64,000 nt of DNA from Candidatus Melainabacteria bacterium. GTDB taxonomy: Bacteria; Cyanobacteriota; Vampirovibrionia; Obscuribacterales; Obscuribacteraceae. The stretch spans positions 1 to 64,000 of the forward strand of contig DAIDIP010000019.1 in NCBI GenBank assembly GCA_027451745.1, written 5' to 3'. The stretch's first letter is position 1. Each line of letters starts with the position of its first letter. Made by a program: the position numbers and the translations under genes. This document shows positions 29,151 to 35,792 of this stretch, one piece after another. Under the pieces are notes generated by a model. That model did no database searches. It was not told the DNA's origin and saw only the letters and a program-made list of their open reading frames with translations.

Positions 29151-31988
29151 CTATTTAGCATCCATCCAGTTTTGACCAATGCCCACATCAACTTTAAGAG
29201 GTACTATTAATGGTTGCTCCATTAGCATCACTTTAACCACAAGCTCTTTCACTTGTTCTAATTCGCTCTGCGGCACTTCTAAAACTAATTCATCATGCAC
29301 TTGCATAATCAGTTTTGTCCTTAAATTGTTAGTTATCAACTCATTCTTTAGACTGATCATTGCTAATTTCATCAAATCGGCTGCGCTACCTTGTAAAGGT
29401 GCATTGCAAGCAGCCCTCTCATCAGCTCGTTTCAAGGCCTCATTTCTATCATTTAAAAATCTAAAATAACGTCTACGTTTCCACAAAGTTTCTACGTAAC
29501 CATACTTGCGTGCATTTTCAATAGTTTTTTCCATAAAAGTTTTCACTTTTGCATATCTTGCAAAATATTTATCAATGAAAGCGCTGGCTTCTTTTGTTGA
29601 TACTCCCAAATCACGAGCAGTAGCAAATGGACCTTGCTGATAAATAAGAGCAAAATTTAGAGTTTTTCCAACTCTTCTCATGTCGCTTGTAACATCTTCA
29701 ATTGTTACGTCAAAAATCTCTCCAGCTGTCCGAGCATGCACATCTTGATCTTTTTTGAAAGCATCTATTAGTCTTTCATCTTCTGACATATGAGCTAATA
29801 GTCGCAGTTCAATCTGAGAATAGTCGACTGATAATAATGACCATTTTTTATCTGCCGGAATAAATGCCCTGCGTGTGCGCCGCCCTAATTCTGTACGAAT
29901 AGGAATATTTTGCAAATTAGGGTTCGAGCTAGAAAGTCGCCCTGTACTGGTTGTGACCTGGTTAAACTCGCAGTGCAAGCGTTTATCCACATTTGATACC
30001 ATCTTTGGCAAAGCATCAACATAAGTAGATTTGAGCTTAATCAATTGCCGATAATCTAATAGCAAAGGGATTATTTCATGCTCAGCTCTAAGCGACTCTA
30101 GAACTGAAGCATCAGTAGAATAGCCGGTCTTCGTTTTTGCTTTTGTCTTTAATCCAATTTCTTCAAAAAGTACTTTTTGTAATTGTTGTGTTGAATTGAT
30201 ATTAAAAACATGACCAGCCAAGCCATAGATTTGCTGTTCTAATTTACTTAACTCGGCACTCAATTCATTTGAAAAATCATTCAAGTAAGGCAAATCCAAA
30301 GATACGCCACACTGCTCCATTTTTGCCAACACTACAGATAGTGGCAGCTCCATTTTCTCTAGAAGATACTTTTGATCTTCGTTCATATTGTCTGCATAGT
30401 ATTTTGCTAAGGCAAAGCCTAAATTAGCGTCCTCGACAGCATGTTCCAAAATCTCTCCACCACCTTCTACAATGTCTAAGCTGGCTTTTGTAAGCTTCTT
30501 ACCAGTACTTTTTACTGCCGTCCGTTCAGTCTCATAATCTAATAATCTCCGTGCTTGATCGTGCAAGCCATGCTTTTCATCTGCCGAATAAATATAGCTG
30601 GCTAGCATAGGGTCCATACTCACATTCACTAACTCGATGTTCTGTGAATTAAGCAAATTAAGAATATGTTTCAAATTGAATACGCTTTTTACTATTTTAG
30701 GATCTGAAAAAACTTTTTTTAATTTCTCTTGGACCAAATTTATATCCAGCCCCGATCGCCCTAGCGCTAGAGCCATCTGTCGAATTGGAATATAAGCCGA
30801 TCCTGCTCCCCAGCTAAAAGCATAGCCAAATATTTTGGGCTCACCATAAGTTTTAGCATTAGCCGATAAAGGTTCCCACGGGGAGGCATTTATAAACAGA
30901 CTAATTAACGCCTTAGAACTAAGACTTTCTATTAGTTCATCAAGTTCAGGCTCTGAACTAACAATTTTTGTTGCCTCAGTTTTAGTCCCAGTATGTACAG
31001 CGCTGCTGCTCTCCTCTTCCTGAATTACAGGCCGATCTTTAACCTGCTCCTCCACAATTTTTTGCTTGACTGATTTTTGCTCAATATCAGTAATAGAAAA
31101 ATTAGCCAAAATTTTTGGCAGTCGAGCACTCAACGCTTTAAACTCTAGACCCAAAAAAAAGTCACTTAAAGCCTGGGCATCTGGGGGTGTTAAATGGCAA
31201 TGAACAAAATCAAATTCAAGCGGCACATCATAAACAATAGTAGCTAGTCCCTTGCTTTTACGTGCAATTGTTTCTCCTTCAACTAATTTGCTATGCAAAG
31301 CTTTTGCCTTAACTTCATTGATATTTTTATAAATGCCATCCATATCACCATAACTACTAAGCAATTGCTGAGCAGTTTTAGGACCAATACCACGAATACC
31401 AGGAATATTATCGGAAGTATCACCGCACAGACCTTTATAGTCAGTGATTTGCTCCGGCCAAACACCAAGTTTATCAAATACTTCTTGCTTTCCATAAATT
31501 TGCAAACCGCCCTTACCAGGCATAAGCACTTTGATCTTTTGTTCTTCACCATCTATGAGCTGAAAAGCATCTTGGTCACCAGTTAAAACAAGTACGTTAA
31601 AACCCTTATTTTCAGCTTCACGGGCGATAGTACCAATCACATCGTCCGCCTCATAACCAGCTAGTTCGTAAACGGGCAAACCAAGTTTGGTAACACCTTC
31701 CTTGATTAAAGGCCATTGCTGCGACAAATCATCCGGCATCTCCGCCCGATTAGCCTTATAGTCTTCGAATTCAGTATGCCTAAAAGTAGGTGCAGCCATA
31801 TCAAAAGCCACAGCCAACATACGCGGCTTATATTTTTCAATCAATTCAAACAAAGAATTGAAAAATCCAAGAATAGCCCAGGTAGGCATTCCTGTTTTTG
31901 TGCGCAATCCTGATGTGAACAAAGCAAAAAATGAACGAAAAGCAAGCGAGCTACCATCCACTAAAACTAATGTATTATCTTCTTGCAT
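29151..31988 (-). CDS. polA: DNA polymerase I, proofreading-deficient type
   Basis: A 945-residue repair and Okazaki-fragment polymerase. The 5'-3' exonuclease domain is intact at 1-290 (LVDGSSLAFRSFFAL, LTGDQDAFQL, GDTSDNIPGIRGIGPKTA). The middle domain lacks the D-x-E of a 3'-5' exonuclease (ALISLFINASPWE instead), so proofreading is probably absent. The polymerase motifs are A DYSQIELRLLAH and C MQVHDELVLEVP. Motif B reads RRVGKTLNFALIYQQG: the Arg, Lys, Phe and Tyr are kept, but the usual Gly residues after Phe and Tyr are replaced. No Shine-Dalgarno is clear. Confidence 0.95.
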   Translation of the reverse strand: MQEDNTLVLVDGSSLAFRSFFALFTSGLRTKTGMPTWAILGFFNSLFELIEKYKPRMLAVAFDMAAPTFRHTEFEDYKANRAEMPDDLSQQWPLIKEGVTKLGLPVYELAGYEADDVIGTIAREAENKGFNVLVLTGDQDAFQLIDGEEQKIKVLMPGKGGLQIYGKQEVFDKLGVWPEQITDYKGLCGDTSDNIPGIRGIGPKTAQQLLSSYGDMDGIYKNINEVKAKALHSKLVEGETIARKSKGLATIVYDVPLEFDFVHCHLTPPDAQALSDFFLGLEFKALSARLPKILANFSITDIEQKSVKQKIVEEQVKDRPVIQEEESSSAVHTGTKTEATKIVSSEPELDELIESLSSKALISLFINASPWEPLSANAKTYGEPKIFGYAFSWGAGSAYIPIRQMALALGRSGLDINLVQEKLKKVFSDPKIVKSVFNLKHILNLLNSQNIELVNVSMDPMLASYIYSADEKHGLHDQARRLLDYETERTAVKSTGKKLTKASLDIVEGGGEILEHAVEDANLGFALAKYYADNMNEDQKYLLEKMELPLSVVLAKMEQCGVSLDLPYLNDFSNELSAELSKLEQQIYGLAGHVFNINSTQQLQKVLFEEIGLKTKAKTKTGYSTDASVLESLRAEHEIIPLLLDYRQLIKLKSTYVDALPKMVSNVDKRLHCEFNQVTTSTGRLSSSNPNLQNIPIRTELGRRTRRAFIPADKKWSLLSVDYSQIELRLLAHMSEDERLIDAFKKDQDVHARTAGEIFDVTIEDVTSDMRRVGKTLNFALIYQQGPFATARDLGVSTKEASAFIDKYFARYAKVKTFMEKTIENARKYGYVETLWKRRRYFRFLNDRNEALKRADERAACNAPLQGSAADLMKLAMISLKNELITNNLRTKLIMQVHDELVLEVPQSELEQVKELVVKVMLMEQPLIVPLKVDVGIGQNWMDAK

Positions 31989-32026: not shown

Positions 32027-33754
32027 TTATTTTCCTGTTTTAACATATTTTGTTTTTCCAGGAGACGTTAATGCTTCATTAAGTACTCGTCCTTCTGAGA
32101 AGGGCGGCATCGTGATGGAAAGCACATTTGCAATAGTTGGCGCTATATCATCAGGACTAACAGCGCCAGCATAAGTGCCGCCTTTTATTTGACTACCATA
32201 AAGAAGCAATGGCACCTGAGAATCATAACTATATGGTGAACCATCCGCAATACCATCGCTTTCAGAAGTAAAAACATAGCCAGACTTAGGAACAACGTAG
32301 AGTTCTCCACTTCGTCCCCAGAAATAACTTCTGCGCACAACATCTACCTGAGGTCCAGTTGGTACTTGATTCATAAAAAACTGAAAAGCCGTATAAATTT
32401 CGGCCACACCAGGAATTGAATGGCCCAATTTAGCAGTTAGCTTTTCAACATCCGGTTGACGAAAGTTACTGTGATCAATAGCATTCAAGTTTAGATAAAG
32501 ATTTGGTGGTATAAAAGCTTCTATCCAATTTGCTTTACCAAGCTTGGAAGATAACGAGCTATTCAGTTGATTGCGGAATGCTTTTGCATCAACTAAGCCA
32601 CCTTCAAGACCTTGCGCTTGGAGCATTTGTGCCGGTGCTGCAGCCCCATGTCCAGCGGTAAATATTACCAAGCAATTGCTCAAACCAACTTGCTCATCTA
32701 AAGATTCAAATAGATCAGCCAGGGATTGATCGAAGCGCAAAACTAAATCATGCGCTTCATTGCTATATGGTCCATAGGTTTTTCCCACCAGTTCAAAGGA
32801 CGGAAAACTAACAGTTAACATATCAGGTGTATCATGCTGCCCCAATGATTCGTGCTCGACAATGTCTTTGGCAAAATCAACTAACATTTGATTTGCCCAA
32901 GGGGTAGCTTGAAAGCGAGTATAAAAACTTTCATCTGCAATTTTAGAATCACTGTTTATCATGTAACCGAAACTATGTTCTGAATCAGATTTTTGTGGTT
33001 CATAAGTATCGGCAGATGCAAATACATTTGTGCGTCCGCTTGGCTGCCAGTTTTTACCAAGAAATTGCTCGCTATATCTTTTATCGTTAAAAGATTTAGC
33101 CCAGCCTGGAACACTTTTACTTAAACGACTCTGCCCAGTAAATGTGCCTGTACGGCAATCCCACCAAAAAGCTTGGTCTTTTGATTTTCCAGCCAAGAGC
33201 AATGCATCATTACGAGCAGTCGACAGACTGACAATATGACTCAAACCATTACTAGCAACCTTTAGCTCGTCACCAACAGTATTTCCTAGTAATAAAGAAG
33301 ATCCACCGGCGCTTTCTTCAGCGCCAGCGGGACTATTTTCATCTGTAATTACTCTAATAGCCGTCTGTTTACGGCGATCATACCACTCATTGCCAACCAC
33401 CCCTGTACCGGATGGATAAGCTCCTGTGACAATAGTAGCCAGATTACAAGCTGTCTGATTTGTCGCCCCCAAATAACGACAAGCTGTAAAATTAGCGCCA
33501 TTGTCAATTAATTGCCTAAGACCATTTGCTTGAAATTTATCAGCACAATGCAAAAAATAATTAGTAGGAAATTGATCAGCAATCAATAAAACAACTAATT
33601 TAGTCTTTTGGTTTGAAGCTGATGCAGCCAACACTGGCGTCTCGATAAAATTAAACAGAATAGAAATAGTAAGAAGAACACAAGCGAGCATTGGTCGCTT
33701 ATTTATTAAATTGCTAGTAATTGTCAATACCTCATTTTGATTTCTTGTTGACAT
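32027..33754 (-). CDS. Alkaline-phosphatase-superfamily protein, probably inactive
   Basis: A 575-residue exported protein of the PafA/type I phosphodiesterase group (GATNQT...LATIVTGAYPSGTG, GNEWYDR, VSPDDIAPTIANVL). The first metal ligand D60 (LIADQF) is kept. At other ligand positions the usual residues appear changed: SxxDYVGH is SFELVGK, TADHG is TAGHG, and YDTHVP is YDSQVP. At least four of the six ligands therefore seem lost. A hydrophobic segment at 21-43 serves as signal or anchor. It may be a binding protein or use a different chemistry. Confidence 0.8.
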   Translation of the reverse strand: MSTRNQNEVLTITSNLINKRPMLACVLLTISILFNFIETPVLAASASNQKTKLVVLLIADQFPTNYFLHCADKFQANGLRQLIDNGANFTACRYLGATNQTACNLATIVTGAYPSGTGVVGNEWYDRRKQTAIRVITDENSPAGAEESAGGSSLLLGNTVGDELKVASNGLSHIVSLSTARNDALLLAGKSKDQAFWWDCRTGTFTGQSRLSKSVPGWAKSFNDKRYSEQFLGKNWQPSGRTNVFASADTYEPQKSDSEHSFGYMINSDSKIADESFYTRFQATPWANQMLVDFAKDIVEHESLGQHDTPDMLTVSFPSFELVGKTYGPYSNEAHDLVLRFDQSLADLFESLDEQVGLSNCLVIFTAGHGAAAPAQMLQAQGLEGGLVDAKAFRNQLNSSLSSKLGKANWIEAFIPPNLYLNLNAIDHSNFRQPDVEKLTAKLGHSIPGVAEIYTAFQFFMNQVPTGPQVDVVRRSYFWGRSGELYVVPKSGYVFTSESDGIADGSPYSYDSQVPLLLYGSQIKGGTYAGAVSPDDIAPTIANVLSITMPPFSEGRVLNEALTSPGKTKYVKTGK

Positions 33755-33956: not shown

Positions 33957-34364
33957 ATGAGTGAAAGAACCAAGCTTTTAAAGAAGGCCGTGTTAACCAG
34001 TGTTGGAGCAAGCACTAATGTTGACCGAATTAAATCAGCCTTGAATGAAGCCATGCAAGATTTAGTCAAAGTCGGACATGGCTTATTGGAAGAATTAGAA
34101 GAAAAGGGCAAAGTTAAAACTGACCATGTCCAAGAATTTCTAAAAAACTTCCAGGCTGAAGCCGCAAAAAAAACATCTCAAGTCGAAAAGAAAGTTTCAA
34201 CTGGTATGAAAAAAGCTGTGCGCGAATTGGGATTGATAACCCAAGCTGACTGGGAAGAAATGTGCGAACGCTTAACCGATATTGAAGAAGCTCTAGGCAT
34301 TGCCGAAACAGAAGGTAATGGCAGCGCTGGTAAAGGCCGCCGTCGCAAAAAACAAGGCAGCTAA
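33957..34364 (+). CDS. Phasin-like / PHA-granule-associated protein
   Basis: A 135-residue helical protein. The order of a long amphipathic N-terminal region (LLKKAVLTSVGAS, EEKGKVKTDHVQEFLK), a coiled segment, and VRELGLITQADWEEMCERLT followed by a Lys/Arg-rich tail matches the phasin-like family linked to polyhydroxyalkanoate granules. GGGAGAA precedes the ATG. No PHA synthase gene is nearby, so a role in storage-granule coating is only inferred; related proteins also occur in organisms lacking PHA. Confidence 0.75.
   Translation: MSERTKLLKKAVLTSVGASTNVDRIKSALNEAMQDLVKVGHGLLEELEEKGKVKTDHVQEFLKNFQAEAAKKTSQVEKKVSTGMKKAVRELGLITQADWEEMCERLTDIEEALGIAETEGNGSAGKGRRRKKQGS

Positions 34365-34433: not shown

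Positions 34434-35792
<1,359 letters not shown>

Follow-up and report, generated by a model that had tools for sequence, protein, structure and literature searches.

What becomes of a gene that keeps the frame and fold of an alkaline phosphatase after most of the residues that hold its zinc have been replaced? This question is raised by a gene in the middle of a 64,000-nucleotide stretch of Candidatus Melainabacteria bacterium DNA (contig DAIDIP010000019.1), here called the window. The original prediction, made from the letters of the window, was a PafA-like protein stripped of most metal ligands and maintained as a pseudoenzyme with a new, perhaps binding, role in the periplasm. The reading we prefer, with a rough probability of 0.57, is that an old phosphatase had a second, zinc-independent role on the envelope side, that this role has been kept by selection, and that catalysis was lost in at least two lineages.

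The gene was correctly placed and its frame is intact, on the minus strand:

32027..33754, minus strand: 575-aa protein of PafA fold whose zinc site is degenerate (open reading frame, PDB 5tj3, fold)
33620..33754, minus strand: probable export signal, residues 1-45 (boundary set by eye)

At the N-terminus of the window protein and its relatives, a hydrophobic stretch followed by small residues can be recognized by eye, and on this inspection the window protein is apparently exported. A sequence search matched it to PafA (PDB 5tj3; E 6.5e-65), a Bacteroidota alkaline phosphatase that is insensitive to phosphate, and the Pfam Phosphodiest model exceeded its cut-off of 23 with 101.5 bits. The NCBIfam PafA model NF042991 gave 345.4 bits, which is below its cut-off of 650; two intact orthologues (491 and 493 bits) also miss this cut-off, while two Bacteroidota proteins exceed it (688 and 794 bits). 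A structural model built from 13 sequences (pLDDT 74.7, pTM 0.79) superimposes on 5tj3 with a Z of 47.4 over 491 residues (rmsd 2.9, 28% identity). By its predicted fold, the window protein is thus a member of the alkaline phosphatase superfamily, and the conserved overall fold first described is borne out. PhoK/SPAP of Sphingomonas (PDB 3q3q) shares this fold (Z 40.5 over 484 aligned residues) but, unlike the window protein, to which it is 22% identical, it keeps all seven ligands. The model has low confidence around the active site, but this was rejected as a sign of loss, because the model of the intact orthologue L032, made from the same set of sequences, shows low confidence over largely the same regions.

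The catalytic residues were located through a list of ten PafA residues, which, together with the division of the ligands into two zinc sites, we take to be correct. The ten assumed letters all match the 5tj3 sequence at a single constant offset, and the title of PDB entry 5too lists T79, N100, K162, and R164 as mutated residues. The corresponding positions in the window, placed by alignment, are as follows (PafA numbering in parentheses):

33575..33577, minus strand: Asp60 (D38), metal ligand, kept
33452..33454, minus strand: Thr101 (T79), nucleophile and ligand position, kept
33389..33391, minus strand: Asn122 (N100), kept
33209..33217, minus strand: Ala180 and Asn182 (K162 and R164), both lost
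32792..32794, minus strand: Glu321 (D305), changed ligand
32780..32782, minus strand: Lys325 (H309), lost ligand
32648..32653, minus strand: Gly368 and His369 (D352, lost, and H353, kept)
32243..32245, minus strand: Asp504 (H486), the ligand misplaced in the original prediction
32216..32218, minus strand: Gln513 in YDSQVP, no ligand position

The window protein resembles PafA in its whole-protein fold, its export signal, and the retention of D38, T79, N100, and H353. It differs from PafA in four of the seven metal ligands (D305E, H309K, D352G, and H486D), which leaves three in place, and in both residues of the substrate clamp, with alanine at K162 and asparagine at R164. With the site division assumed above, the losses cover all three ligands of site Zn1 and one of the four of Zn2. 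The claim that most ligands are gone was therefore right, and the losses of K162 and R164, which had not been listed, add to it. Two of the three motifs offered in its support hold genuine ligand changes: DYVGH to ELVGK contains D305E and H309K, and TADHG to TAGHG contains D352G, next to the retained H353. The third, YDTHVP to YDSQVP, is a real sequence but was misassigned. It falls on the column of PafA residue 495, which is not a ligand position: 13 of the 14 fully intact orthologues have glutamine there, as do 30 of the 31 degenerate ones. The true ligand, His486, lies nine residues upstream of this motif, where PafA reads GTTHSVW and the window GIADGSP.

All seven ligands are present in the 14 intact orthologues (by definition), in 7/7 paralogues, and in 8/8 outgroup rows; therefore, the loss of ligands exceeds what chance would give. 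Judged by these alignments, the window protein is an enzyme homologue that has lost its catalytic residues, and the degenerate copies as a group are predicted to lack hydrolase activity.

The gene is present in single copy in the window genome, and orthologues occur in 47 of the 53 Obscuribacterales genomes, among them all 22 with a completeness of 90% or more and a contamination of 5% or less. In a sample of the class, the 47 matching genomes out of 289 all belong to this order, and in a sample of the phylum the only match among 386 genomes was the window's own. The twelve named relatives comprise eight Melainabacteria or Obscuribacterales MAGs and four Bacteroidota. The neighbours of the gene in the window are:

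29151..31988, minus strand: polA, DNA polymerase I, 38 bases downstream (TIGR00593, 980.4 bits)
33957..34364, plus strand: phasin-like gene, divergent (PF05597, 23.8 bits, below the cut-off of 28.8)
34434..35774, minus strand: purA, conserved neighbour (TIGR00184, 523.6 bits)

In all 20 contexts compared, polA adjoins the gene on the same strand, whether the copy is degenerate or intact; in G021 and G026 the two are spaced further apart. The phasin-like gene is nearby in 17/20 contexts and purA in 15/20, and polA and the phasin-like gene are also found at the locus in G051, from the order's other family. The gene is thus one orthologue, passed on vertically throughout the order Obscuribacterales. 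One open frame of 1549 aa in G032 was considered as a fusion of the gene to polA and rejected, as the L004 frame reads as stopping before polA.

Six of the 53 genomes gave no match. Five of these absences are uninformative because no polA match was obtained (G004, G005, and G024) or polA lies at a contig end (G003 and G042). The sixth genome, G028, is the only clear deletion: its locus is otherwise conserved, but no PafA-like gene separates polA from the phasin-like gene (L132, 10915-11228). Since it was cleanly lost from a conserved locus, the gene is not indispensable. On the ribosomal tree described below, the genus of G028 groups with a degenerate genus.

After removal of nine duplicate or near-duplicate rows, 45 distinct sequences were available for comparison. 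Fourteen have 7/7 ligands; in the other 31 between one and four are left, and no sequence has five or six. By hand count, 13 genera are degenerate, nine are intact, and none is mixed. Both pieces of one interrupted copy (L015, in G011) were left out of the trees and of these counts; it has the ligands but also one TAA, either natural or an assembly error in a MAG that is 66% complete. Another copy, L034 in G018, has 7/7 ligands with cysteine at R164, and its sister on the ribosomal tree is the degenerate genus g24; it is perhaps an intermediate. The substitutions seen in the window are shared by its orthologues only in part. H309 and H486 are lost in all 31 degenerate sequences, but the replacement residues mostly differ from genus to genus and the other 14 of the 45 sequences are fully intact. 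In 15 columns, conservation reaches at least 93% among the intact copies but not among the degenerate ones. Six of these are residues of the catalytic list (window positions 101, 180, 321, 325, 368, and 504), another five (61, 105, 106, 318, and 324) are no more than five residues away from such a residue, and four are elsewhere (79, 94, 229, and 341).

The number of losses was examined with a species tree of 25 ribosomal-operon proteins from 37 genomes. Its final version omits G040, G031, and a second, very divergent ribosomal operon of G015 (L105, contig C666), which sits on an end branch of 2.21 and is probably a contaminating contig. This tree places the degenerate genomes G047 and G048 inside the intact group (99/97, 100/99). 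A single loss was rejected in the form of one clade of all degenerates, a clade that included G028, which lacks the gene (AU p 0.000275, delta lnL 144). The same tree leaves room for just one loss among the degenerates outside genus g24. The gene tree, of which a second version was made without PhoK, requires at least three changes, but it does not reject the joining of degenerate groups b+c+d, a+c+d, a+b, or b+c (p 0.31-0.39). Because one degenerate clade is rejected, the outgroups are intact, and we take regain of several residues to be implausible, these trees indicate that the catalytic site was lost at least twice independently, two being the minimum.

Loss of catalysis could simply be a stage in the loss of the gene. 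In this explanation, the phosphatase became useless, the gene is drifting toward deletion, and any constraint still seen reflects a need for the product to stay folded and harmless or is left over from the past. The clean deletion in G028 is in keeping with such decay, and so is the faster evolution of the degenerate copies, whose median rate relative to ribosomal proteins is 3.23 compared to 2.53 for the intact ones. The signs are clearest close to the window. Its nearest relatives, L031 and L037, carry internal deletions, and the pair from its own genus has a dN/dS (Nei-Gojobori, as throughout) of 0.161, or 0.142 without the first 50 codons, with dS near saturation. For this pair, the dN of 0.308 is higher than that of all six neighbouring genes compared (dN 0.084-0.263, dN/dS 0.044-0.105), one of which is full-length polA (dN 0.198).

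Outside the window's genus, however, the data speak against decay. Among 30 degenerate pairs from other genera, 23 gave dN/dS values of 0.006-0.116 and seven had a saturated dS and no ratio; many of the dS values are near saturation and the pairs are not independent, although the ten degenerate pairs with dS below 1.5 cover the same range. Two of six intact pairs gave values, 0.053 and 0.085, and the other four were saturated. In 7/8 usable pairs, the gene had a lower dN than the 5' part of polA (L002 replaced L033 in the g24 pair, and L013/L020, with an unaligned polA pair, was dropped). All 31 degenerate sequences used are open frames, and the degenerate form occurs in 13 genera. The gene is maintained by selection. 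Most of the degenerate genera with measurements show strong constraint; in the window's own genus constraint is real but weaker. For this last reason slow decay remains a serious rival, and of the competing explanations it is the one we rate highest, while still considering it unlikely. The idea of a maintained pseudoenzyme is thus supported by the intact frame, the slot beside polA, the export signal seen by eye, dN/dS well below 1, and relatives that also lack the ligands, and it is weakened by the fact that constraint is lowest in the very genus for which it was proposed.

Another possible explanation is that the protein is still an enzyme, with a remodelled site, perhaps single-metal or metal-free, and a new reaction. 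The window protein retains Asp60, Thr101, Asn122, and His369, with Glu321, Lys325, and Asp504 in place of zinc site 1, and among the 31 degenerate sequences D38 is kept in 29 and H353 in 21. In genus g21, moreover, the ten pocket columns show no changes where 3.9 were expected (P 0.049). This hint that the pocket stayed frozen after the loss is confined to g21 and does not hold generally. In an intact clade, the same ten columns have 0 changes compared to 16.3 expected, but in 23 degenerate sequences they have 40 compared to 34.1, which is about the average rate. Together with the varying replacements and the retention of T79 in just 7/31 degenerate sequences, this average rate does not suggest one new reaction shared by all. 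We regard a changed enzyme as improbable, and somewhat more so than decay.

A different phosphatase could also have taken over hydrolysis and freed this copy. A second PafA-like gene with 7/7 ligands occurs only in six genomes of one degenerate clade, and full-strength PhoD occurs only in five genomes, all of them degenerate. The second PafA-like genes (L055-L061) are about 30% identical, keep the seven ligands, and have Gly or Ser at N100. Across the 53 genomes, however, PhoX was found in none, PhoA above its cut-off in none, and PhoD above its cut-off in eight, so replacement cannot hold generally. The window genome shows no such substitute. There, PF01663 finds the window gene and one sub-threshold match, and PF00884 finds one other protein. 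Replacement would also account for dispensable catalysis and not for the retention of the protein. It may explain the clade with the second PafA-like gene, but not the window, and as a general account it is more doubtful than either explanation above. Least credible by far is a misalignment that hides the true ligands at shifted positions, for although one of the motifs first offered was misplaced, no gap separates the window protein from PafA in the six columns on either side of any of the ten residues, and the 14 intact orthologues have their ligands in the same columns.

The preferred reading, a second role kept while catalysis was lost, begins with an ancestor that would have been an exported PafA-type zinc phosphatase of Obscuribacterales. 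This protein most likely had two jobs, the zinc-dependent hydrolysis of phosphate esters and another performed outside the cytoplasm. The second job would need the folded body and not the zinc site; it could be, for example, the binding of an envelope ligand or partner. At least two lineages, including that of the window, would then have dispensed with hydrolysis, losing zinc site 1 and, in most cases, the Lys/Arg substrate clamp as well, with the rest of the protein still under purifying selection. That the fold, the genomic place, and most of the sequence were kept while catalysis was lost suggests a second, non-catalytic job, and the window protein may likewise have the new binding role originally proposed for it. 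A more far-reaching version is possible, though it falls short of an even chance: an order-specific, zinc-independent envelope function (as a receptor, scaffold, or ligand carrier) would have arisen in the ancestor and be the main target of selection, with catalysis dispensable and repeatedly dropped, its residues replaced differently in each lineage.

The closest precedent we found is fungal Ssd1/Dis3L2, likewise one orthologue with repeated catalytic loss and a conserved remainder. There, separate lineages lost the nuclease site on at least four occasions while other parts were conserved, and a catalysis-independent function was proposed as ancestral (PMC8097288). Unlike the window protein, Ssd1/Dis3L2 belongs to an unrelated, eukaryotic family whose non-catalytic role, RNA binding, is established (PMC8097288). 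A literature search, mainly of openly accessible papers, found no account of PafA-like proteins in this group that are degenerate.

Counts of PafA-like proteins made by homology alone can include unlikely phosphate-ester hydrolases, which here make up 31 of the 45 distinct sequences. Since intact and degenerate orthologues share one genomic slot in related genera, the order of the events that form a pseudoenzyme can be tested, and the same bacterial series also allows a test of what selection keeps once catalysis goes. If the more far-reaching version is true, the conserved job of the PafA-type phosphatase in Obscuribacterales would not be phosphatase activity.
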